Part shown: positions 7,028 through 38,223 of the stretch, in pieces
Layout: each line of letters starts with the position of its first letter
Position numbering within the stretch: position 1 is the stretch's first letter
Origin: Rhodopseudomonas pentothenatexigens
GTDB lineage: Bacteria > Pseudomonadota > Alphaproteobacteria > Rhizobiales > Xanthobacteraceae
Reading direction: 5' to 3'
DNA: 64,000 nucleotides
Assembly (NCBI RefSeq): GCF_900218015.1
Contig: NZ_UFQQ01000013.1
Span: forward strand, 62,001-126,000
Notes under the pieces: generated by a model
The model's database searches: none
What the model was told of the DNA's origin: nothing
The model's input: only the letters and a program-made list of their open reading frames with translations
Made by a program: the position numbers and the translations under genes

Positions 7028-7102
7028 TGGGGCGTAGCCAAGCGGTAAGGCAGGGGATTTTGATTCCCCCATGCGGAGGTTCGATCCCTCCCGCCCCAGC
7101 CA
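7028..7102 (+). tRNA. tRNA-Gln (anticodon TTG)
   Basis: The full cloverleaf can be drawn. Acceptor arms are TGGGGCG (7028-7034) and CGCCCCA (7092-7098). The D arm is GCC...GGC. The anticodon stem is GGGGA/TCCCC around the 7-base loop TTTTGAT, giving anticodon TTG. The T arm is GGAGG-TTCGATC-CCTCC. Discriminator G is at 7099 and an encoded CCA at 7100-7102. It stands alone between two minus-strand genes. Confidence 0.95.
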
Positions 7103-7182: not shown

Positions 7183-9006
7183 TCAGCTCGCCAGACTCTT
7201 CATATAGGCGCGCCATCCGCCGAACGACGAAATGTCGGTCGCGCCTTTCAGGCCCTCGGCCTCGACGATGAAGCCCTTCGGCGTCGTGCCGTCGGCCAGC
7301 CGCGTGGTGCCGATGCCGAGCGGCGCGGGGATGCCGGCGACGAAGCTGCCGAAGCCTTCGGCGGAGATTGCCCAGACCTCGGTGGCGATCGGGGTGCCTT
7401 CGTCCGGTGCGACGCGCAGCAGGCCCGGCCGGAACGGCGGGCCGCCTTGCAGCGCGAACAGCTTGTAGTCGGGCGTGGTGGAGACCGCGCGCAGGAAACG
7501 CCCGCCGCGGCTGGTCAGCTCGTGGTTCAGCGGCATGCCGGACAAATGCGCGCCGACCACCACCAGCTCGATCTCGTTCGCACCGGCAGTGGACGACGCC
7601 TCGACTGGAGCCGGCACCTTGGTGCTGCTGGCGCCCACGGACACCTCGCTTGCGGCGTGAAGGCGCTCGCCCAGCGCGGCGAGCAGACCGTCGCGGCCGG
7701 ACGGCGCGATCAGCGTGACGCCGGACGGAAAACCAGGGGCGCGGAATCGGCCGGGTACGGCCAGCGCGCAAAGGTCGAGCAGGTTGACGAAATTGGTGTA
7801 GGTGCCGAGCTCGCTGTTGGGGCCGATCGGATCGGTCTGCAAATCCGCGATCGTGCGCGGGCGCGGATAGGTCGGCACCATCAGCACGTCGATGCTGCTC
7901 CAGATCGCATCGGCGGCGCGGCGCAGCTCGGCCAGCCGGTACAGCCCGCCAAATGCATCGGCCGCGCTGAACGCCGAAGCCGAGCCGATGATCTTCCGCG
8001 TCACCGGATGCAGCAGCTCGGGCGTGGTCTCGATCACCTGCCGGATCGCCTGATAGCGCTCTGCGACCCACGGCCCGCTGTAGAGCAGGCTGGCGACGTC
8101 GAACAACGGCGACAGATCAACTGCACGAGCGGGTGCAGACACCACCGTCGCAAGGTCCGTCAACGCAAGATCGAACGCGCGTTCGGACTGCAGCTCGCCG
8201 GCGAATTTGCGGCTCGCCGTGTCCGGCACACCGACGCGCAGACCGGGCGGCAAAGCAGCGGGCTTGGTAGCTGCACTGGGATGCGGCCGCGACCAGGGAT
8301 CGGCGCGGTCGAACGTCGCCATGACGCGATAGATCGCGTAGGCGTCGGCGACGGTGCCGGCGAACACCGAGATCGTATCCAGCGTCCGGCACGCCGGCAC
8401 CATGCCGCGCGACGACACGCTGCCGAGTGACGGCTTCAGCCCGACGATATTGTTGAGCGCAGCCGGGACGCGGCCGGAGCCTGCAGTGTCGGTGCCGAGC
8501 GCGAATGTCACCAGGCCATGCGCCACCGCGACCGCCGAGCCGCTGCTCGACCCGCCAGGCACGTAGCGCGGATCGATCGCATTGCGTGGCACCGGATAAG
8601 GCGTGCGGACGCCGACCAGCCCGGTCGCGAACTGATCGAGGTTGGTCTTGCCGATCAGGATCGCGCCGGCATCGAGCAGACGCTGGACCGCAAACGCGGT
8701 TTCGCTCGGCGTGTAGGCGAAGCCCGGGCAGGCGGCCGTGGTCGGAAGACCCGCGACATCGATGTTGTCCTTCACCGCAAACGGGATGCCCCAAAGCGGC
8801 TGCGCATCGGGATCGAACGGGCCGAGCGCTTCGGCGTCGGCGAGAACATCGTGCTCGGGTCGCAGCGTGATGAAGATGCCGGGATCGGCCACTGCTGCGA
8901 TCCGGCGATATGCCACAGCGATGATCTCGGCCGGAGACGCGCCGGCCGCATATGCGGCGTGTAAGGTTGCGATCGTCGGGAAGGTGGTGAGTTCAGCAGC
9001 CGACAT
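7183..9006 (-). CDS. atzF: Allophanate hydrolase
   Basis: The product is 607 residues, the usual length of two-domain allophanate hydrolases (AtzF/DUR1 C-half). The N-terminal amidase-signature domain (about 1-440) shows the Lys of VKDNIDVAGLP, the Ser-rich GGSSSGSAVAVA and the nucleophile region GTDTAGSGRVPA. The C-terminal domain (about 480-607) contains VVVGAHLSGMPLNHEL, as in AtzF. It splits allophanate into two CO2 and two ammonia. Its ATG overlaps the stop of the carboxylase gene by one base (TGATG), so the two are translationally coupled. Allophanate is made by the upstream enzymes of this operon. Confidence 0.92.
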   Translation of the reverse strand: MSAAELTTFPTIATLHAAYAAGASPAEIIAVAYRRIAAVADPGIFITLRPEHDVLADAEALGPFDPDAQPLWGIPFAVKDNIDVAGLPTTAACPGFAYTPSETAFAVQRLLDAGAILIGKTNLDQFATGLVGVRTPYPVPRNAIDPRYVPGGSSSGSAVAVAHGLVTFALGTDTAGSGRVPAALNNIVGLKPSLGSVSSRGMVPACRTLDTISVFAGTVADAYAIYRVMATFDRADPWSRPHPSAATKPAALPPGLRVGVPDTASRKFAGELQSERAFDLALTDLATVVSAPARAVDLSPLFDVASLLYSGPWVAERYQAIRQVIETTPELLHPVTRKIIGSASAFSAADAFGGLYRLAELRRAADAIWSSIDVLMVPTYPRPRTIADLQTDPIGPNSELGTYTNFVNLLDLCALAVPGRFRAPGFPSGVTLIAPSGRDGLLAALGERLHAASEVSVGASSTKVPAPVEASSTAGANEIELVVVGAHLSGMPLNHELTSRGGRFLRAVSTTPDYKLFALQGGPPFRPGLLRVAPDEGTPIATEVWAISAEGFGSFVAGIPAPLGIGTTRLADGTTPKGFIVEAEGLKGATDISSFGGWRAYMKSLAS

Positions 9007-12000
9007 CACACTTCCTCCAGCGCGCAGATCAGGTCGCCGGCGCGCAGCGTTTGCCCCGGCTTGGCATTGAGGGCTCGGACGATGCCGCGCGCGGTCGCCG
9101 GAATCGCGATCTCCATCTTCATCGATTCGATCACTGCCAGCGTCTGGCCGATCTCGACATGTTGGCCGGGTTCGACGGTGAGCTTCCAGACGTTGCCGGG
9201 CGCTTCGGTGAACTGGCCGATGCAGCCGTCCGGCACGTCGCCGCCGGAGCCGAGCGCGGCCGCGGTGTCGTCCTCGACGACCTCGTCGAGCTTGGCGTCG
9301 CGCCAGCGCTGGCGTTCGGCCTCGAACGCGGTCTGCTGGCGGGTCTTGAACGCCGAGATGCCTTCGGCCTCGCGCGCCAGGAACGCTTTGTAGTCGGCGT
9401 AGGAGAACGTCGTCTCCTCGATCTGGAGCGGATAGCCGCCGTGCGGAAACGCGGCGCGGGCGTCGAGCAGTTGTTCCGGCGTTACCGGGAAGAACCGGAT
9501 CTGGTCGAAGAACCGCAGCAGCCAGGGATGGCCGGGCTTGAACACTTCGGTGCTGCGCCAGGTGTTCCAGACCTGGATGGTGCGGCCGAATAGCTGATAA
9601 CCGCCGGGGCCTTCCATGCCGTAGATGCACATATAGGCGCCGCCAATGCCGACGGCGTTTTCCGGCGTCCAGGTGCGGGCCGGATTGTATTTGGTGGTGA
9701 CCAGGCGATGCCGCGGATCGACCGGGGTGGCGACCGGCGCGCCGAGATAGACGTCGCCGAGGCCGAGCACCAGATAGCTGGCGCCGAACACGATGCGCTT
9801 GACGTCGTCCTCGCTGGAAAGACCGTTGATGCGGCGGATGAACTCGATGTTGGACGGACACCACGGCGCATCGGGACGCACCAGCTCTTGATACTTGCGC
9901 ATCGCCAGCACCGCCTGTGGATCGTTCCACGACAGCGGCAGGTGTATGATGCGGCTCGGCACCGCCATCGCTTCGACCGACGGCAGTTCGCGCTCGATCC
10001 TCGCCAGTGCGTCGAGCAGCTTGCGGCGTGACATCACCGCGCTGTCGTAGTGGATCTGCAACGAGCGGATTCCCGGCGTGAGATCGATGATCCCAGGCAG
10101 TCTGGCTTTCTCCACCGCCTCGGCGAGCACGTGCACCCGCAAGCGCAGCGCGATGTCGAGCTCCATCGGGCCGTATTCGACCAGCAGATTGTCGTCGCCG
10201 GCGCGGCGATACACCACCGGGATCTCGCCATCGTCATGGCGGCCGACGATCGCCGAGCCGAGCTCGGCAGGCGCGGCGATCACGGTCGGCCCTGCGACCG
10301 GATCATCGGCCCGCGCCACCGGCACGAAGCGAAGTTTGTCGCCGGGCTTGAGCTGGCCGACCTTCCACAGTTCGTCGCGCGCCACCACGGCCGGGCAGAC
10401 GAAGCCGCCGAGGCTCGGGCCGTCGGGCCCGAGGATGATCGGCATGTCGCCGGTGAAGTCGATCGCACCGACCGCATAGGCGTTGTCGTGGATGTTGGAG
10501 GGATGCAGCCCGGCTTCGCCGCCGTCGGCACGTGCCCATTGCGGCTTCGGTCCGATCAGCCGCACGCCGGTGCGGGCGCTGTTGAAGTGCACTTCGTAGT
10601 CCGAGGAAAACAGCGTCGCGATGTCGTCGTCCCGGAAGAAATCGGGCGCACCGTGGGGGCCGTAGATCACGCCGATCTGCCACGCGCGCGTCAGCGCTGG
10701 CCGTTCGTCATCGGTGAGCGCGCGCGGCTCCGCGACAGGAGCGATCGAGCCGAAATGCAGCACGTCGCCGGCTTTCAGCGCGCCGGTGGCGTGGCCGCCG
10801 AACGCGCCGAGCGTGAACACCGCGCGGGAGCCGAACACTTCGGGCGCATCGAAGCCGCCGCGGATGGCGAGATAACAACGCTGGCCTGGTCCCTCGATCT
10901 TGCCGATCGCCAGCATTTGGCCGGCGCGTACCGCGATCGGCGCGTCATTGCTGACCGCTGTGCCGTCGAGCTTTGCCGCCATGCCGGCGCCGCACAGCGC
11001 CACGACGGCGTCGGCGTTGAAGCGCAGCGTCGGGCCGCTGACGGTGAGTTCGAATGCTGCGGTGGTCTCGGGATTGCCGACGATCCGGTTGGCGAGGCGG
11101 AACGAGCGCTCGTCCATCGGTCCGCTCGGCGGCACGCCGACGTGCCACAGATGCAACCGGCCCGGCAGCTCCTGCAGGCCGGATTGCGCGCCGGGCGCCA
11201 CCACGTCGATGGTGCGCGCCGCGAAGCTGAAGTCCGCCAGCACCTTGGTGGCGACCTTGCCGCTGCGGAACAGATCGGATGCGGCGATCGCGCGCAAGTA
11301 ATCAAGATTGGTCTCGATCCCGGCGACGGTGGTGGCGGCGAGCGCCCCGATCATCTTGTCGATCGCGGCGTCGCGGTCGGCCGCGTGCACGATCAGCTTC
11401 GCCAGCATCGGGTCATAGAACGGCGTTACCTCGTCGCCGGTTTCGATCCAGCCGTCGACGCGCGCGTCGTCCGGAAACGCCACCTGGGTCAGCCGGCCGG
11501 CCGAGGGCCGGAAGCCGGCGCCGGGGTTTTCGGCATAGAGGCGCACTTCGATCGCCGCGCCTTGCGGCGGACGCGGTGTATAGGTCGCAAGCGGGCTGTC
11601 GCCGGCAGCCTGGCGCACCATCCATTCGACCAGATCGACGCCGAACACTGCTTCGGTGACGGGATGCTCGACCTGCAGGCGGGTGTTGACCTCGAGGAAG
11701 TAGAATTCGTCGCGGGCGACGTCGTAGATGAATTCGACGGTGCCGGCGGATTCGTAGGCGACGTTCCGGCCGAGCGCGACCGCGGCCTGGTGCAGCCGGA
11801 TGCGCATCTCATCCGAGATGCCGGGCGCCGGGGTTTCCTCGACGACTTTCTGGTTGCGCCGCTGCAGCGAGCAGTCGCGCTCGCCGAGCGCGATCACGTT
11901 GCCCTGGCCGTCGCCGAAGATCTGCACTTCGATATGGCGGGCGTTGGCGACGAAGCGCTCAAGATATACCCGCGCGTCCCCGAAGCTGGCGCGCGCGGTG

Positions 12001-12554
12001 CGCTGCACCGTGGCGAAGCGTTCGCGCAGCGTCGCTTCGTCGTGACAAAGCTGCATGCCGATGCCGCCGCCGCCCGCGGTGCTCTTCAGCATCAGCGGAA
12101 AGCCGATCCGTGCCGAGGCCTCCAGAGCTTCCTCGATGCTGTCGATCAGTCCGGTGCCGGGCAGCAGCGGCACGTTGCTGGCCTGCGCCAGTTCGCGGGC
12201 GCGGTGCTTCAGGCCGAACGCCTCGAGATGCTCGGGGCGCGGCCCGATGAAGGCGATGCCGTGCTGCTTCAGCCGCTCGGCGAAGCCGCGGTTCTCCGAG
12301 AGAAAGCCGTAGCCGGGATGCACCGCCTGCGCGCCGGTTGAGAGGCAGGCGGCGATCACGGCGTCGACATTGAGATAGCTGTCACTGGCGGCGTCGCCGC
12401 CGACCCGCACCGCCTCGTCGGCCTCGCGCACCGGGCGGGTGAAGCGGTCGGCGTCCGAATAGATCGCGACCGATGCGATCCCCATCCGGCGCAAGGTGCG
12501 GCCGATCCGCCCGGCGATTTCGCCGCGGTTGGCAATCAGAACTTTGCTGAACAT
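9006..12554 (-). CDS. Biotin-dependent carboxylase: guanidine carboxylase (urea carboxylase family)
   Basis: The product is 1182 residues. Domains in order: biotin carboxylase (about 1-450, MFSKVLIANRGEIA start, ATP-grasp glycines KSTAGGGGIGMQ); a KipA/AHS2-like carboxyltransferase part (about 475-770, with LHLWHVGVPPSGPMDERS); a KipI/AHS1-like part (about 790-1040); and a biotinyl domain with the biotin lysine at about 1146 in ESMKMEI. Family members carboxylate urea or guanidine using ATP and bicarbonate. The guanidine-I riboswitch and the DUF1989 pair in this operon argue for guanidine. The residue that separates the two substrates was not resolved here. Only two bases separate it from the upstream gene. 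Confidence 0.88.
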   Translation of the reverse strand: MFSKVLIANRGEIAGRIGRTLRRMGIASVAIYSDADRFTRPVREADEAVRVGGDAASDSYLNVDAVIAACLSTGAQAVHPGYGFLSENRGFAERLKQHGIAFIGPRPEHLEAFGLKHRARELAQASNVPLLPGTGLIDSIEEALEASARIGFPLMLKSTAGGGGIGMQLCHDEATLRERFATVQRTARASFGDARVYLERFVANARHIEVQIFGDGQGNVIALGERDCSLQRRNQKVVEETPAPGISDEMRIRLHQAAVALGRNVAYESAGTVEFIYDVARDEFYFLEVNTRLQVEHPVTEAVFGVDLVEWMVRQAAGDSPLATYTPRPPQGAAIEVRLYAENPGAGFRPSAGRLTQVAFPDDARVDGWIETGDEVTPFYDPMLAKLIVHAADRDAAIDKMIGALAATTVAGIETNLDYLRAIAASDLFRSGKVATKVLADFSFAARTIDVVAPGAQSGLQELPGRLHLWHVGVPPSGPMDERSFRLANRIVGNPETTAAFELTVSGPTLRFNADAVVALCGAGMAAKLDGTAVSNDAPIAVRAGQMLAIGKIEGPGQRCYLAIRGGFDAPEVFGSRAVFTLGAFGGHATGALKAGDVLHFGSIAPVAEPRALTDDERPALTRAWQIGVIYGPHGAPDFFRDDDIATLFSSDYEVHFNSARTGVRLIGPKPQWARADGGEAGLHPSNIHDNAYAVGAIDFTGDMPIILGPDGPSLGGFVCPAVVARDELWKVGQLKPGDKLRFVPVARADDPVAGPTVIAAPAELGSAIVGRHDDGEIPVVYRRAGDDNLLVEYGPMELDIALRLRVHVLAEAVEKARLPGIIDLTPGIRSLQIHYDSAVMSRRKLLDALARIERELPSVEAMAVPSRIIHLPLSWNDPQAVLAMRKYQELVRPDAPWCPSNIEFIRRINGLSSEDDVKRIVFGASYLVLGLGDVYLGAPVATPVDPRHRLVTTKYNPARTWTPENAVGIGGAYMCIYGMEGPGGYQLFGRTIQVWNTWRSTEVFKPGHPWLLRFFDQIRFFPVTPEQLLDARAAFPHGGYPLQIEETTFSYADYKAFLAREAEGISAFKTRQQTAFEAERQRWRDAKLDEVVEDDTAAALGSGGDVPDGCIGQFTEAPGNVWKLTVEPGQHVEIGQTLAVIESMKMEIAIPATARGIVRALNAKPGQTLRAGDLICALEEV

Positions 12555-12556
12555 GA

Positions 12557-13192
12557 TCAGTCCTCGCCTGCCTCGTAGATCACCACCTGGATCGGCGTCG
12601 GGAAGAAGCCGTTGCAGGGATTGTTGACCTGCGGACAGTTCGAGATCAGGCACAGCACGTCCATCTCGGCGACCATCTCGACGTAGTCGCCGGGCTTGGA
12701 GACGCCGTCGACCACGGTGAAATTGCCGGACGTGTCGAGCGGCACGTTCATGAAGAAGTTGAGGTTCGGCACGATGTCGCGCTTCGACAGACCGTGCTTG
12801 GCGGCCTCCAGCACGAAGTTCTCGCGGCAGGCATGCAGATATTTGGTCTGGTGCCCGAACCGCACGGTGTTGCTCTCGCAGGAGCAGGCGCCGGCCGAGG
12901 TGTCGTGCAGGCCGCAGCTATCGGCGACCATGCGCAGCATGGTGCGGCCCTCGGTGGACATGATCCGCGTGCCGGTGGTGACGTAGGCCGAACCCTGAGC
13001 GCGTAGTGTGTCCTGGCCGCTATAGCGTTCGCCATGATCGTCGGCGGCGTAGAACAGGGTGTCGACCGCCTGCTGGCCGTGGCTGTCGACGATGCGCAGC
13101 GTCTGGCCCTTGCGGATGATCGCCGACCACGGCACGCGCGCCGGGATCTCGGTGTCGAGCACGATGCGGGCGGAAGCGGGAATCGCGGTCAT
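12557..13192 (-). CDS. Carboxyguanidine deiminase subunit (DUF1989, urea carboxylase-associated protein)
   Basis: The product is 211 residues. DUF1989 proteins of this type were first named urea carboxylase-associated proteins; work on guanidine operons showed that the pair (CgdA/CgdB) forms a carboxyguanidine deiminase that yields allophanate. Visible family features are the IRKGQTLRIVDSHGQQ strand pair near residue 25, a cysteine-rich metal-site region GLHDTSAGACSCES near 95, and SNCPQVNNPCNG near 185. These cysteines and histidines probably bind zinc. It is separated by two bases from both the preceding paralogue and the carboxylase, so the three are one translational unit. Which of the two is CgdA was not decided. 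Confidence 0.85.
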   Translation of the reverse strand: MTAIPASARIVLDTEIPARVPWSAIIRKGQTLRIVDSHGQQAVDTLFYAADDHGERYSGQDTLRAQGSAYVTTGTRIMSTEGRTMLRMVADSCGLHDTSAGACSCESNTVRFGHQTKYLHACRENFVLEAAKHGLSKRDIVPNLNFFMNVPLDTSGNFTVVDGVSKPGDYVEMVAEMDVLCLISNCPQVNNPCNGFFPTPIQVVIYEAGED

Positions 13193-13194
13193 GC

Positions 13195-14034
13195 TCAGGC
13201 CCTCCCTGCGACGCCGGCGAGATAGAAGGCGTTGTTCTCGAACGCGCGTTTGGCTTCGAGCGACACGGTGCGGCAAAGGTCGTCGGCGGCGGGCTGAGGC
13301 GCCTGATAGCGGATGATGTCGATGTCGCCCGGCGCGTAGCTGGGGGATGGGTCGAGCGGGTGCGGACAGTTCGACACCGCGACGAGCAGGTCGAGCTCGG
13401 CGCGCAGATCGACGAAGTCGCCCTTGTTGCGACGCTCGCCGTGCCATTCGAACCGGCCCTGCGAGTCGACGGCGACCGGAGCGAAGAATCCGATCGACGG
13501 GTGCAGGTCGCGGCGATCGAGCCCGAGCTTGCCGGCGGCGAGCACAAAATTGTCGCGGGTGTTGCGGAAACTGCCGGCGCCGTAGCGCGCCGCATTGGTC
13601 GCCGCGGTGGAGCCGCCGACCATGGTGTCGTGCGCGCCGCTGGTGTCCTCGATGATCGACAGCAGCGCACGGCCCATGTCGGACAGGATCACCCGGCCTT
13701 TGCGCAAGGACGCCGCCCACTGCACCTTGATGGTGTCGGCATGGTTCAGCCGCTCGCTCGGGTCGAGCGCATTCCAGGCCTGGATGCTGACGCAGGACGT
13801 GCCGCTGGTGTTGACGAGGCGCAGCGCTTCGCCGCGGCCGAGCTTGGTCACGTAGTACCAGCCACCCGGCACGGTCTCGCGATGGATGATCGCGTCCGCT
13901 GCGATCGGCGCGCCGTCGCGCGGCGTCGGCGGCGGCAAGGCCTTCGGTGCCTGTTGCTGGCCCAGTGCCTTGTGCTGTTCGTAGCGCTGGCGGTTGGCCT
14001 CGACTTCGGCCTTCTCTTGCTCGGTCAGGATCAT
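13195..14034 (-). CDS. Carboxyguanidine deiminase subunit (DUF1989 paralogue)
   Basis: The product is 279 residues and is a paralogue of the gene at 12557, with an N-terminal extension (TEQEKAEVEANRQRYEQH, helical, then a proline-rich stretch) of about 60 residues. Shared features are the ALRLVNTSGTSCVSIQ strands, SGAHDTMVGGST in place of the partner's cysteine-rich segment, and SNCPHPLDPS near residue 230. The loss of the AGACSCES cysteines here, against their presence in the partner, suggests that only one subunit carries the full metal site and this one has a structural role; that is inference. The ATG at 14034 has a GAGGA ribosome site. Confidence 0.82.
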   Translation of the reverse strand: MILTEQEKAEVEANRQRYEQHKALGQQQAPKALPPPTPRDGAPIAADAIIHRETVPGGWYYVTKLGRGEALRLVNTSGTSCVSIQAWNALDPSERLNHADTIKVQWAASLRKGRVILSDMGRALLSIIEDTSGAHDTMVGGSTAATNAARYGAGSFRNTRDNFVLAAGKLGLDRRDLHPSIGFFAPVAVDSQGRFEWHGERRNKGDFVDLRAELDLLVAVSNCPHPLDPSPSYAPGDIDIIRYQAPQPAADDLCRTVSLEAKRAFENNAFYLAGVAGRA

Positions 14035-14072
14035 GCTGTCCTCACGGTGAACAAACGCCGGGTCGTCCCGGC

Positions 14073-14864
14073 TCATGCTCCCTGTGCGGCCGGGTCGTCC
14101 CGGCCGGAGCGGATTGGATGGTCGGTGCGCGGCTGCGCGATGCGCCGCGGAAAGATTTCGAGATCGCGCGAGATCGTGGCGCCGTAGCGCTCGCGCTCCT
14201 CGGGACGGTTGCGATTGCGCTCGAACGCGATCACGCGGGTCGCCAGGCTGAACGCTTCGGACAGATCGTGCGTGACCATCACCACCGTCAGCTCGGTCTC
14301 GTTCCACAGCCGCTTCATCAGCACGTGGATGTCGGCGCGGATGCCCGGGTCGAGCGCGCCGAACGGCTCGTCGAGCAGCAGGATCTTGGGGCCGCGCATG
14401 ATCGCCTGCGCCAGCGCCAGCCGCTGCTGCATGCCGCCGGACAGCGACGCGGGATATTTGTGCTCGTGGCCCTTCAGCCCGACCTCGTCGAGCAGCGCCA
14501 GCGCCTGCTCGGTCGCCTCGCGCCGCGCCCGGCCGAACAGCCGGCCGAGCAGCCGCGACTGTTGCAGCTCGCGGCCGAACAGCACGTTGTCGAGCACGGT
14601 GAGATGCGGAAACACCGAATAGCGCTGGAATACCACGCCGCGATCGGCGTCGGGTTCGCTCGGCATCGGCCGGCCGTCGATCAGGATCCGGCCGCGGGTC
14701 GGCGTCTCCTCGCCGAGCAGCATGCGCAGGAAGGTGGTCTTGCCGCAGCCGGAGGGGCCGACCAGGGCGACGAAGGCGCGCGGCGCGACGTCGAGCGTGA
14801 TCCGCTCCAGCACGATGTGGTCGCCGTATTCCTTCCAGACGTTGTCGAATCGGATCGCGCTCAT
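14073..14864 (-). CDS. ABC transporter ATP-binding protein, guanidine operon
   Basis: The product is 263 residues. Walker A GPSGCGKTT (near 37), Q-loop FQRYSVFPHL, signature LSGGMQQR and Walker B ILLLDEPFGALD, followed by the H-loop VTHD, mark a complete NitT/TauT-type ATPase. Its ATG overlaps the permease stop by four bases (ATGA at 14861-14864), so the permease is translated first. It powers uptake of the substrate bound by the product of 15715. A short tail rich in Arg and Pro follows the core domain. Coupling with guanidine-degrading enzymes makes guanidine the likely cargo; family annotations often say urea. Confidence 0.88.
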   Translation of the reverse strand: MSAIRFDNVWKEYGDHIVLERITLDVAPRAFVALVGPSGCGKTTFLRMLLGEETPTRGRILIDGRPMPSEPDADRGVVFQRYSVFPHLTVLDNVLFGRELQQSRLLGRLFGRARREATEQALALLDEVGLKGHEHKYPASLSGGMQQRLALAQAIMRGPKILLLDEPFGALDPGIRADIHVLMKRLWNETELTVVMVTHDLSEAFSLATRVIAFERNRNRPEERERYGATISRDLEIFPRRIAQPRTDHPIRSGRDDPAAQGA

Positions 14865-15679
14865 TCCGCCCTCACCGCGGCGAACCAGGGGAAGGCCTTG
14901 CGCTGGATCAGTCGCAACGCCAGGTCCATCAGGAAGGCGAGCAACGTGATCCACACCACGTAGGGAATGATCACGTCCATCGCCAAATAACGTCGCACCA
15001 GGAAGATGCGATAGCCGAGCCCGGAGTCGGAGGCGATCGCTTCGGCGGCGATCAGGAACAGCCAGGCGGGGCCGAGCTGCAGCCGCAGCGAGTCGATCAA
15101 TCGCGGCAGGATCTGCGGCAGCACCACGCGGAGCGCGATCTGCCAGGTCGAGGCGCCGAGCGTCTGCGCCTTGATCAATTGCTCGCGTGGCAGCTCCATC
15201 ACCCGCATCGCCAGGTCCCGGATCATCGCCGGCAGCGTGCCGATCACGATCAGCGCGATCTTGGAGTTTTCGCCGAGCCCCATCACGATGAACAGGATCG
15301 GCAGCAGCGCCAGCGGCGGCACCATCGACGTCACCGACACGAACGAGCCGAGCAGCGCGTTCGCGGCCGGCAGCAGTCCGATCACGATGCCGAACACGAG
15401 AGCCAGCGAGGTCGAGATCGCCAACGCAGCGCCGAGCCGTTCCAGGCTCGCCAGCGTGTCCGTCCACAACAGATAGTTGCCGGTGCGGGCGTCGACCTGA
15501 AACGCCATCTGCTTGACTGCCTGGCCCATGCTGGTCAGGGCCGGCAGCAGCTTGTCGTTCGGATTCTCAGCGAGCCTGGCGCCGGAGCCCAGCAGATACG
15601 CAATGATCACCAGCACGAACGGCAGCGCCGCCATGTAGATGGCGAGTTGCCGTCCAGGCCTGATGTTCACCCATCGCAT
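14861..15679 (-). CDS. ABC transporter permease, guanidine operon
   Basis: The product is 272 residues, with about six hydrophobic helices. The first follows RPGRQLAIYMAALPFV; the permease coupling segment is around LGASTWQIALRVVLPQILP (residues ~170-190), matching the EAA loop of NitT/TauT-type permeases (BPD_transp_1). It works as a dimer with the ATPase whose start overlaps its stop. The 35-base gap to the upstream binding protein and the shared strand put it in the same operon. Confidence 0.88.
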   Translation of the reverse strand: MRWVNIRPGRQLAIYMAALPFVLVIIAYLLGSGARLAENPNDKLLPALTSMGQAVKQMAFQVDARTGNYLLWTDTLASLERLGAALAISTSLALVFGIVIGLLPAANALLGSFVSVTSMVPPLALLPILFIVMGLGENSKIALIVIGTLPAMIRDLAMRVMELPREQLIKAQTLGASTWQIALRVVLPQILPRLIDSLRLQLGPAWLFLIAAEAIASDSGLGYRIFLVRRYLAMDVIIPYVVWITLLAFLMDLALRLIQRKAFPWFAAVRAE

Positions 15680-15714
15680 CGTCGTGCTCCGGCTTGGCTT
15701 GTGGAGGTGATCGC

Positions 15715-16785
15715 TTACAGCTTGCCGGCCGCGGCCATGTCCATGAAGCTCGGGTCGAACCGCAGCTTCACGTTGGACTTGTCGCCGAGCACGCTCTTGT
15801 CTGCGAGCTCGATGCCGACGGCGTCGGCCGACTTCGCGCCCTTGCCGAGCAGGTCCTTGTCGAACAGGAACTTGCGGACGCGGTCCATGGTGCTGCCGAT
15901 CGCCGCGCTCTTGGTGAAGGCTTCGGCGTCCGCGGCCTTGCTGAACAGCCTGGTCGAGGCGAGCTGGCTTTCGAAGCCGGCCAGATCAGTACCCGACGCC
16001 TTCGCCATCGCTTCCTTGGCGGCCTTGGCCTCGGCGCCTTCCGCCGTCATCTTCGCCATGGTCTCGTACCAGATCCCGACCAGCGCCTTGGCGAAGTTCG
16101 GATTGTCCTTCACCACCGCGGTGTTGGCGACCATCAGATCCATGATTTCGCCGGGGATCTGCGAGGAGTCGAATACCTTGTGGGCGTCGGGCGAAGAGAG
16201 GATTTCGGAGACGATCGGATTCCACGTCACCACCGCGGTGACGTCGGCGGTCTTGTAGGCGGCGGCGAGGTCGGCGTCGGAAGTGTTGACGACCTTGATG
16301 TCCTTCTCGGTCAGCTTGTTGGATTCGAGCGCCCGCGCCAGCAGATAGTGCGACACCGAGAACTCGACCAGATTGACCTTCTGGCCCTTGATCGCGGTCA
16401 GGTCCTTCTTGTCCTTCAGGATCACCGCGTCGTTGCCGTTGGAGAAGTCGCCGACGATCACCGCGGTGGTGTCGACGCCGCCGGCGGCGGGAATCGACAG
16501 TGCGTCCATATTGGTGATCGTCACCGCGTCGAAAGAGCCGGCGGTGTACTGGTTGATCGACTCGACGTAGTCGTTGAACTGCTTCACCTCGATGGTGATG
16601 CCGTATTTGTCGGCCCACTTCTTCACGATGCCGGTGTCGGCGGCGTAGCCCCACGGCATCCAGCCGACATAGATCGACCAGGCGACCTTGAAGTCTTTCT
16701 TGGGGGCGGCGGAGGCTCCGGCGACGCTCAGCGCGACGATCGAACCGGCGAGGATCAGAGAAGACAGCAAACGTGTTTTCCGCAT
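15715..16785 (-). CDS. ABC transporter substrate-binding protein, guanidine operon
   Basis: The product is 356 residues. The ATG at 16785 is preferred because GAGGAATG lies just upstream and a signal peptide begins there (MRKTRLLSSLIL, cleavage after G-A-S-A-A). The mature protein has the NMT1/TauA-like start FKVAWSIYVGWMPWGYA, with several aromatics suited to cation binding, and ends FDPSFMDMAAAGKL. Related proteins are annotated as urea-carboxylase-associated (ABC_peri_uca type). It is the first gene after the guanidine-I riboswitch. The probable ligand is the guanidinium ion, by context. It is soluble in the periplasm and not lipidated. Confidence 0.87.
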   Translation of the reverse strand: MRKTRLLSSLILAGSIVALSVAGASAAPKKDFKVAWSIYVGWMPWGYAADTGIVKKWADKYGITIEVKQFNDYVESINQYTAGSFDAVTITNMDALSIPAAGGVDTTAVIVGDFSNGNDAVILKDKKDLTAIKGQKVNLVEFSVSHYLLARALESNKLTEKDIKVVNTSDADLAAAYKTADVTAVVTWNPIVSEILSSPDAHKVFDSSQIPGEIMDLMVANTAVVKDNPNFAKALVGIWYETMAKMTAEGAEAKAAKEAMAKASGTDLAGFESQLASTRLFSKAADAEAFTKSAAIGSTMDRVRKFLFDKDLLGKGAKSADAVGIELADKSVLGDKSNVKLRFDPSFMDMAAAGKL

Positions 16786-16857
16786 CGGATCATTCCTCAG
16801 AATCTGGTCACGATGAGGAATTGACATGGACCATCGTTTGCCAATTCCTCGGCTTAC

Positions 16858-16960
16858 GAGGTCTCCCGGGCTTTTGTCCCGCCGTGCGTCCGAAGGATTT
16901 CTCCCTTCGGGGGGCAGCTCTCGGACCAGCGTCTGAAACAGACCGGAACCCTAGCCGCCA
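16858..16960 (-). promoter_or_regulatory. Guanidine-I riboswitch (ykkC type)
   Basis: Read on the minus strand, the leader of the ABC binding protein contains the conserved blocks of the guanidine-I aptamer in order: CTAGGGTTCCGG (16954-16943), TGGTCCGAGAG (about 16928-16918), the stem with ACG/GCACGGC, and GGGACAAAAGCCCGGGAGA (about 16880-16862). These are near-identical to the ykkC consensus. It sits about 70 bases before the first start codon. No run of U after a hairpin is evident, so control may be translational or act through a small CCTCG/CGAGG hairpin just downstream (about 16844-16857). Guanidine is expected to turn the operon on. Confidence 0.92.
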
Positions 16961-17386
16961 ACTCTGGGAAGATTGTTGCCTCAACTCACCGGCGTTTGGA
17001 AGCATCGCACCGCACAAACAATGTGCAGGCGGCGATACTTGTTTGTTCAGATTGGCGAACGATCCGGCGGGTTAGGTATCATTATGAGGTGGGAGCCGCT
17101 TTCGACTGCGCACAGCAGGCCCCGCATGCAGTCCGCAGCGCCGTCGGTGCGACGGGACGCAGTGAAACCGAACGGCGACTCCTCCACCGAAAGGATGGAA
17201 TTCGGTCTGGGGGCCGATCCATGATCATCCTGGAGGGTAAGTAATAGCCCCGGCCTTCGCCGAGATCGATTCGCGATTGATTTCGCTCAATGCAACTGCG
17301 CCAGCGTCGGCTCAGCCTTGCAAAGAATGTGGGGGGATAGGCCCTCATTGAACCTGACGTGAGCCGGACGGCCGAAAGGGCTGATC
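16961..17386. other. Intergenic region without a recognised gene
   Basis: This 426-base stretch separates the riboswitch (minus) from the cysteine-rich gene at 17387 (plus), so it must hold two divergent promoters. I see short GC-rich hairpins around 17100-17240 but no convincing coding sequence or named RNA. The ribosome site GAAAGGG of the next gene is at about 17374-17380. Confidence 0.5.
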
Positions 17387-37773: not shown

Positions 37774-37840
37774 ATCGCCTGCTGCGGTGCACCGCGGCCA
37801 TTTTTACTTGCACGCACACCGGGCGCGTGCTCTGGTTTCG

Positions 37841-38014
37841 ACGTCTTCGGTGCCTCGCATGCGAGGTGAAACTGGGAATACGGTGCGGTGACTTTCACCA
37901 AATCCGTAGCTGCCCCCGCAACTGTAAGCGGATCTGTCCGGATCAGACGGCCACTGACGCCATCGGCGTCGGGAAGGCGATCCGGGCGACATCCGTGAGC
38001 CAGGAGACCGGCCG
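37841..38014 (+). promoter_or_regulatory. Cobalamin (B12) riboswitch
   Basis: The aptamer blocks appear in order: GGTGCCTCGCATGCGAGG with GAAACTGGGAA near the start, the core GCTGCCCCCGCAACTGTAAG (B12 box, about 37911-37930), the GCCACTG region, GGGAAGG, and the closing GAGCCAGGAGACCGGCC (37998-38014). It is oriented toward the small cysteine-rich gene at 38224. The 210-base distance leaves room for an expression platform; a GC-rich hairpin is possible at about 38085-38110. Adenosylcobalamin should repress the downstream gene. Confidence 0.93.
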
Positions 38015-38223
38015 GAGACGGAAGCATCTAACCGATCGACGGCGGGTCGAGAGCGGAGCAGCGATGACCGAATTCTCTTAGCAGGCGAAGCCGCGCGCAG
38101 CCGCGATCGCAGCGTCACGCGACGCTCGGCATCGCCTTGCGTTCATTCCCCTTCAATCAGAACCCGCCACAGCGCCGTTGCGATCAAGCCGGCGGTCCAC
38201 TGCTGCGGCGCGAGGGAACGGTT

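Follow-up and report, generated by a model that had tools for sequence, protein, structure and literature searches.

Does an operon whose genes are named for urea use serve guanidine instead, and how would its expression be gated? The question is raised by a run of minus-strand genes in Rhodopseudomonas pentothenatexigens, within a 64,000-nucleotide stretch of contig NZ_UFQQ01000013.1 (positions 62,001 to 126,000). We refer to this whole stretch as the window and use its own numbering. Our analysis favors, with a probability of about 0.7, a guanidine-assimilation operon gated by two guanidine riboswitches, with a guanidine-I riboswitch (Gd-I) working at translation and an internal guanidine-II riboswitch (Gd-II) controlling the catabolic genes. 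As published for homologues, guanidine would be imported, carboxylated, deiminated to allophanate by a pair of DUF1989 proteins, and hydrolyzed to ammonia and CO2. Expression of the importer genes would depend on Gd-I at the 5' end, acting most likely on translation, and Gd-II, ahead of the deiminase genes, would gate the catabolic genes.

A preliminary description of this DNA had placed Gd-I at 16858-16960. The covariance model RF00442 matched the same leader well over its cut-off, spanning 16965-16861 (Table 1). That guanidine is the ligand of this aptamer (ykkC subtype 1) is predicted from gene context and the model name. Pfam and NCBIfam matches bore out the gene order and families given for the region behind it: genes for the binding protein, permease and ATPase of an ATP-binding cassette (ABC) importer, two DUF1989 proteins (D1 and D2), a carboxylase, and an allophanate hydrolase. 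The junctions, described as overlapping or 2-38 bases long, measured 35 (binding protein to permease), -4 (permease to ATPase), 38 (ATPase to D1), 2 (D1 to D2), 2 (D2 to carboxylase), and -1 (carboxylase to hydrolase). Such spacing is insufficient to make the operon one translational unit, as had also been claimed, and that claim is unsupported because two riboswitches divide the operon. The second of these, Gd-II, was absent from the preliminary description. It stands between the transport and catabolic genes and precedes both DUF1989 genes.

Table 1. Positions of the riboswitches, their parts, and the operon genes in the window.
Feature	Position	Strand	Basis or remark
Gd-I aptamer	16861-16965	-	cmscan RF00442, 86.1 bits (gathering 63), E 5.5e-14, full model 1-107
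Predicted translational expression platform	16788-16863	-	covariation in 38 leaders
Platform strand x1	16863-16856	-	
Platform strand A (hairpin)	16853-16840	-	
Platform strand x3	16837-16829	-	
Platform strand B	16825-16814	-	anti-Shine-Dalgarno (anti-SD)
Platform strand C	16799-16788	-	Shine-Dalgarno (SD) strand
ABC substrate-binding protein	15715-16785	-	TIGR03427, named putative urea binding; predicted start
ABC permease	14861-15679	-	PF00528
ABC ATPase	14073-14864	-	PF00005; stop TGA 14075-14073; last codons encode Gd-II hairpin P1
Gd-II	14058-14106	-	cmscan RF01068, 48.3 bits (gathering 32), E 1.7e-6
Gd-II hairpin P1	14105-14088	-	
Gd-II linker	14087-14073	-	contains ATPase stop
Gd-II hairpin P2	14072-14057	-	
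D1 (UAAP1)	13195-14034	-	PF09347, TIGR03425; predicted carboxyguanidine deiminase subunit
D2 (UAAP2)	12557-13192	-	PF09347, TIGR03424; predicted carboxyguanidine deiminase subunit
Guanidine carboxylase	9006-12554	-	TIGR02712; predicted preference for guanidine; Asp699 (codon 10460-10458) and Asp934
Allophanate hydrolase (amidase and AH_C)	7183-9006	-	TIGR02713, PF01425, PF21986

Both hairpins of the internal Gd-II fold in the window, and both of their loops are ACGA, fitting the two-hairpin ACGR pattern of the class. Hairpin P1 is coded by the final codons of the ATPase, whose stop falls in the linker. Within the linker, AGGGAGCATGA comprises an SD-like stretch and an ATG that overlaps this stop. 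The linker ATG is in frame with D1 in six genomes (G000, G108, G156, G190, G215, and G095) and out of frame in four (G125, G207, G170, and G046). In the window, D1 has an in-frame alternative start at 14076, which overlaps the ATPase stop (ATGA). Gd-II is known from sites before SMR (gdx/sugE-type) exporter genes, the same riboswitch class in a position different from that in this operon. The genome has a second Gd-II of this sort (L002, 38.1 bits), and the small gene behind it was identified by eye as an SMR-type exporter gene.

The position of Gd-II was compared across relatives. A survey of 248 genomes of the family contained Gd-I in 64 and Gd-II in 110. Of the 64 with Gd-I, 41 were examined, comprising 35 linked pairs (picked by eye from lists, with both riboswitches no more than 6 kb apart on one strand of one contig), five without Gd-II, and the window; G098, G130, and G183, which carry the two riboswitches on different contigs, were excluded. 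The order Gd-I, binding protein, permease, ATPase, Gd-II, D1, D2, carboxylase occurred in 34 of the 35 linked pairs, the exception being G139, without the transporter. In G074 and G096, the D1 match begins within or before Gd-II. Of the 35 loci with an ATPase, window included, 10 had the ATPase stop inside Gd-II, 22 had it beyond, and 3 had it ahead of the riboswitch.

Another 27 linked pairs came from a survey of 398 genomes of the phylum. The six from the order or class of the window had Gd-II before D1, inside the ATPase open reading frame (ORF) in five. In the other 21, which come from elsewhere in the phylum, Gd-II follows the second DUF1989 gene and precedes the carboxylase, and the DUF1989 stop is always ahead of it (-19 to -285).

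A further set comprised named loci, the best 80 of 538 by D1 similarity, in which both riboswitches were found via short sequence patterns, that for Gd-II demanding GAC in the RDDP-frame core. This set and the family set are not independent (L129 is G170, and L143 is G139). The closest named relatives of the window's D1 were those of Rhodopseudomonas (L129, 98%; L153, 94%). The Gd-II pattern preceded D1 in 77 of the 80 loci, all but L152, L204, and L205; at L205 (4861-5000, Rhizobium phaseoli JHI366) a single Gd-II-like hairpin core stands directly before D1. Gd-II overlapped the ATPase ORF in 60 of the 80, lying wholly inside it in 53 and holding its stop in 7. In 17 the stop came before Gd-II or there was no linked ATPase. 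Fourteen of the 15 loci scored as having the stop before Gd-II belong to Methylobacterium or Methylorubrum; their ATPase match, with its unrelated C-terminus and a distance of more than 2 kb upstream, is probably another gene. Such Methylobacterium or Methylorubrum loci, 14 among L163-L189, have the Gd-II pattern before D1 and no Gd-I pattern. Loci in which the ATPase gene is overlapped by Gd-II came from Rhodopseudomonas, Bradyrhizobium, Xanthobacter, Kaistia, and Rhizobium. In Alphaproteobacteria, Gd-II precedes the cgd genes and usually overlaps the ATPase ORF.

In a few loci the two riboswitches lie close together, with no transporter genes between. In G139 (L089:574-938) they are 206 nt apart, and in L143 and L132 the Gd-I pattern lies 378 and 385 nt before D1. 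These near-tandem arrangements differ from the statement, in the part of PMC9481103 covered, that none of the guanidine riboswitch classes had been seen in tandem.

Because its hairpins are ATPase coding sequence, partly in the window and wholly in most named relatives examined, ribosomes finishing the ATPase must melt Gd-II. We infer that the riboswitch would act mainly when upstream ribosome traffic is low, as a second lock on translation of the catabolic genes without guanidine. A tentative extension, which we hold less likely than its opposite, is that selection has kept the alphaproteobacterial Gd-II inside the 3' codons of the importer ATPase, in any frame, where exiting ribosomes would melt and reset the sensor. 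If so, synthesis of the catabolic enzymes would be tied to importer translation and to guanidine alike.

We rate neutral compaction no less likely than such ribosome-coupled resetting, and give it only slightly less than even odds. Both riboswitches would work, but the overlap would be a by-product of a stop codon that drifted downstream, with Gd-II acting as if it were intergenic. The ATPase tail is indeed dispensable, since the ATPase ends before Gd-II in four surveyed genomes (G180, G192, G201, and G606) and one named locus (L151), and the reading frame through Gd-II varies among loci. Against this, the overlap spans several genera, whereas in the 21 loci with Gd-II after the DUF1989 genes the upstream gene ends before Gd-II, a comparison that is suggestive and not decisive.

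The 5' riboswitch was examined through the region between Gd-I and the start of the binding-protein gene. Of 47 alphaproteobacterial leaders fetched, 38 were aligned. Four (G044, G074, G096, and G606) were set aside since their platforms had been seen to differ before any count was made, and five (G139, G279, G022, G084, and G136) since Gd-I is not followed there by a binding-protein gene. By eye, the leaders of the first four (L075, L082, L087, and L105) have another Gd-I platform, without the strands A, B, and C that are common to the 38.

Two competing pairings were scored in this alignment. Pairing of A with the anti-SD strand B occupied 89.6% of cells, while slid versions reached at most 56.6%; there were 17 double-change cells compared with 6.2 in shuffled alignments (0 of 500 shuffles reached this) and at most 11 in slid versions. 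In the alternative, A folds into its own hairpin and B pairs with C, the SD. This arrangement was paired in 87.3% of cells (slid versions, at most 57.7%), with 25 double-change cells compared with 7.3 in shuffles (0 of 500) and at most 19 when slid. The 3' end of the aptamer, x1, is able to pair with x3 in runs of 4-8 in all 38 leaders, a count made without a control. The lowest-energy structure predicted for the window platform combined x1:x3 (with a bulge), the A hairpin, and B:C, which is the OFF form.

Control at translation is suggested by this covarying element, whose anti-SD has two alternative partners, an upstream strand and the SD. The platform would operate as an anti-anti-SD/anti-SD/SD switch, in which the competing helices covary and, we infer, ligand binding decides between them. 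Without guanidine, x1 would pair with x3, strand A would fold on itself, and B would sequester the SD. With guanidine, the aptamer would retain x1, A would pair with B, and the SD would be free.

Several results count against the favored explanation. Not all measures of covariation were conspicuous. Base pairs altered in both strands numbered 4 for A:B, compared with 2.3 in shuffles (16 of 500 reached this), and 6 for the A hairpin plus B:C, compared with 3.5 (8 of 500). Further pair types hardly exceeded expectation (10 compared with 9.1, reached by 123 of 500 shuffles, and 15 compared with 13.3, reached by 93 of 500). The leader sequences are related, and the slid versions themselves reached 11 (A:B) and 19 (A hairpin plus B:C) double-change cells. 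The longest unbroken x1:x3 run was just 4 pairs in 12 of the 38 leaders, window included. The window platform has a modestly low energy (-32.0 compared with -26.4 +/- 3.3; 16 of 300 shuffles were as low), and the alignment leaves out the four alphaproteobacterial leaders with a different platform. For Gd-II, no SD-sequestering partner for D1 was common to the 56 distinct named sequences folded. Downstream sequence was the main partner of the D1 SD in 18, the linker in 14, the spacer between P2 and the SD in 7, and P2 in 2; in the other 15 the SD was mostly unpaired. In the window, GGGAGCA of the linker is able to pair with UGUUCACC after P2; as a shared element this candidate was rejected, as by eye it fails in G125, G207, and G046.

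It is unlikely that Gd-I acts mainly on transcription, through Rho or a weak terminator, with the A, B, and C pairings secondary. The usual Gd-I is described, in the part of PMC12186494 covered, as a transcriptional ON switch, and Rho action would leave no terminator hairpin. However, the SD strand itself covaries with B, and a consensus scan revealed no terminator-like site between 16861 and 16785, on which ground an intrinsic terminator was rejected; the same scan placed two such sites upstream, at 17265-17173. An inverted repeat, GCACA-TTGTT-TGTGC, seen by eye at 17026-17012 (minus strand) upstream of Gd-I, is a possible regulator site.

The substrate can be judged from the carboxylase itself. 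In the part of PMC11410670 covered, guanidine carboxylases are recognized by Asp at the position of Kluyveromyces lactis residue 1584 together with Asp, instead of the Asn of urea enzymes, at 1330. By alignment to 5i8i and position count, Asp699 of the window carboxylase corresponds to Asn1330 and Asp934 to 1584. Asp occupied both positions in all 62 scorable carboxylases from 67 loci (L062-L128; five had no carboxylase match) and in all 77 scorable carboxylases among the 80 named loci. As a control, eight class-level matches over the TIGR02712 cut-off were taken, of which seven were fetched, the window's own included. Six had Asp at 1330, all with the DUF1989 pair next door, and the single Asn-type locus had no DUF1989 match in its flanks of about 1.5 kb. 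All seven had Asp at 1584; as this includes the Asn type, only 1330 discriminates.

The remaining enzymes fit the same route. D1 and D2 are adjacent DUF1989 paralogues beside the carboxylase, over the cut-offs of TIGR03425 and TIGR03424, respectively. The hydrolase has an AH_C domain and scored 835.1 bits against TIGR02713 (cut-off 511). A guanidine pathway is thus supported by residue 1330, the control loci, a separate urease-alpha match elsewhere in the genome, and the second Gd-II before the SMR-type exporter gene. The preliminary description had likewise preferred guanidine to urea, and both the riboswitch match and the residue alignment it had proposed as a check, which yielded the guanidine-type Asp, sustain that preference. 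It had also foreseen that standard annotation would say urea; the NCBIfam names are indeed urea carboxylase, urea amidolyase associated proteins, and putative urea ABC binding protein. Those names are what speaks for a urea carboxylase as annotated, an identity we reject as highly improbable given the Asp at the discriminating position, the DUF1989 pair with which the Asp type goes in the control loci, the two guanidine riboswitches, and the urease-alpha match.

The coding overlap also raises the question of whether RNA or peptide is under selection. By locus, alphaproteobacterial ATPase tails read RDDP...GRDDPA, GTTR...GRPG, or RDDP...GRPG. The frames of the two cores in the 60 overlapping named loci were (2,2) in 31, (1,0) in 18, (2,stop) in 7, and (2,0) in 4, such that all three frames occur. 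P1 pairs 4-7 showed three to four standard types each, with standard pairs in 23-29 of 29 distinct sequences, counted without a shuffle control. The Asp codons within the cores were 128 GAC and 0 GAT, compared with 519 GAC and 224 GAT elsewhere in the same genes. The Fisher p of about 1e-18 is naive, as the loci are related and the search pattern favors GAC; the bias is partly built in by that pattern, although 77 of 80 loci chosen by D1 matched it. The use of three frames, together with the few genomes that stop before Gd-II, argues for selection on the RNA. A function of the doubled RDDP tail as a peptide, with an incidental Gd-II match, is scarcely credible: the RDDP...GRDDPA repeat is common among the aligned ATPases, but elsewhere the same RNA encodes GTTR or GRPG or lies past the end of the ORF, the core Asp codons are all GAC, and the P1 stem pairs vary in concert, so that the frame changes largely refute the peptide motif as the conserved unit.

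For the binding protein, the start at 16785 is more likely than the longest-ORF start at 16827, because an SD-like TGAGGAAT lies upstream and the product then begins like a signal peptide (by eye). The start at 16827 falls within the riboswitch platform. The genome has two full-length allophanate hydrolases, that of the operon and one at G000:C26:116728-118398. In G108, G125, and G207, one allophanate hydrolase over the cut-off is encoded elsewhere in the genome, with no match beside the carboxylase. A tRNA-Gln (TTG) gene at 7028-7102 (plus strand) directly adjoins the 3' end of the operon, and a cobalamin riboswitch (126.8 bits) lies at 37831-38030 (plus strand).

What emerges is a riboswitch that in several genera is partly, and often wholly, protein-coding sequence, and the frame changes show its conservation as RNA. 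Translating ribosomes and a translational riboswitch sharing one RNA would make a natural test case. Motif discovery has used a pipeline comparing intergenic regions (part of PMC2864571 covered). Pipelines of this kind could miss riboswitches embedded in coding sequence, and protein alignments could take them for a peptide repeat. The platform further suggests that many alphaproteobacterial Gd-I riboswitches may act at translation. The literature matches listed held no description of Gd-II within an upstream ORF or of its alphaproteobacterial position, which does not prove absence from print, and Rhodopseudomonas palustris with guanidine and riboswitch gave no match. Within the literature covered, what is new is a Gd-II embedded in coding sequence and an alphaproteobacterial Gd-I platform predicted to act at translation; the kind of operon, the pathway, and the riboswitch classes are known.

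The guanidine carboxylase pathway and such operons have already been published (PMC12186494 and PMC12508155, parts covered). The loci of ammonia oxidizers and Pseudomonas syringae share the carboxylase signature residues, guanidine-I control, and the same enzymes with the operon described here; an internal Gd-II, present here, is unmentioned in the covered text of PMC11410670. Operons of Raoultella, Klebsiella, and Erwinia also have the importer under Gd-I and the carboxylase and hydrolase under Gd-II, but there the deiminase accompanies the importer under Gd-I, whereas here it is downstream of Gd-II (PMC12186494, part covered). The guanidine carboxylase operon of Vreelandella boliviensis, both of whose riboswitches were shown to bind guanidine, is similarly built, with Gd-I at its start, an internal Gd-II, an ABC transporter, cgdA/B, gca, and atzF (this and what follows from the part of PMC12508155 covered). 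In that operon mgdH/mgdL stand between gca and atzF, while here the carboxylase gene shares one base with the hydrolase gene. Its Gd-II is intergenic, between cgdB and gca, whereas the Gd-II described here lies ahead of the deiminase pair and reaches into the ATPase ORF.

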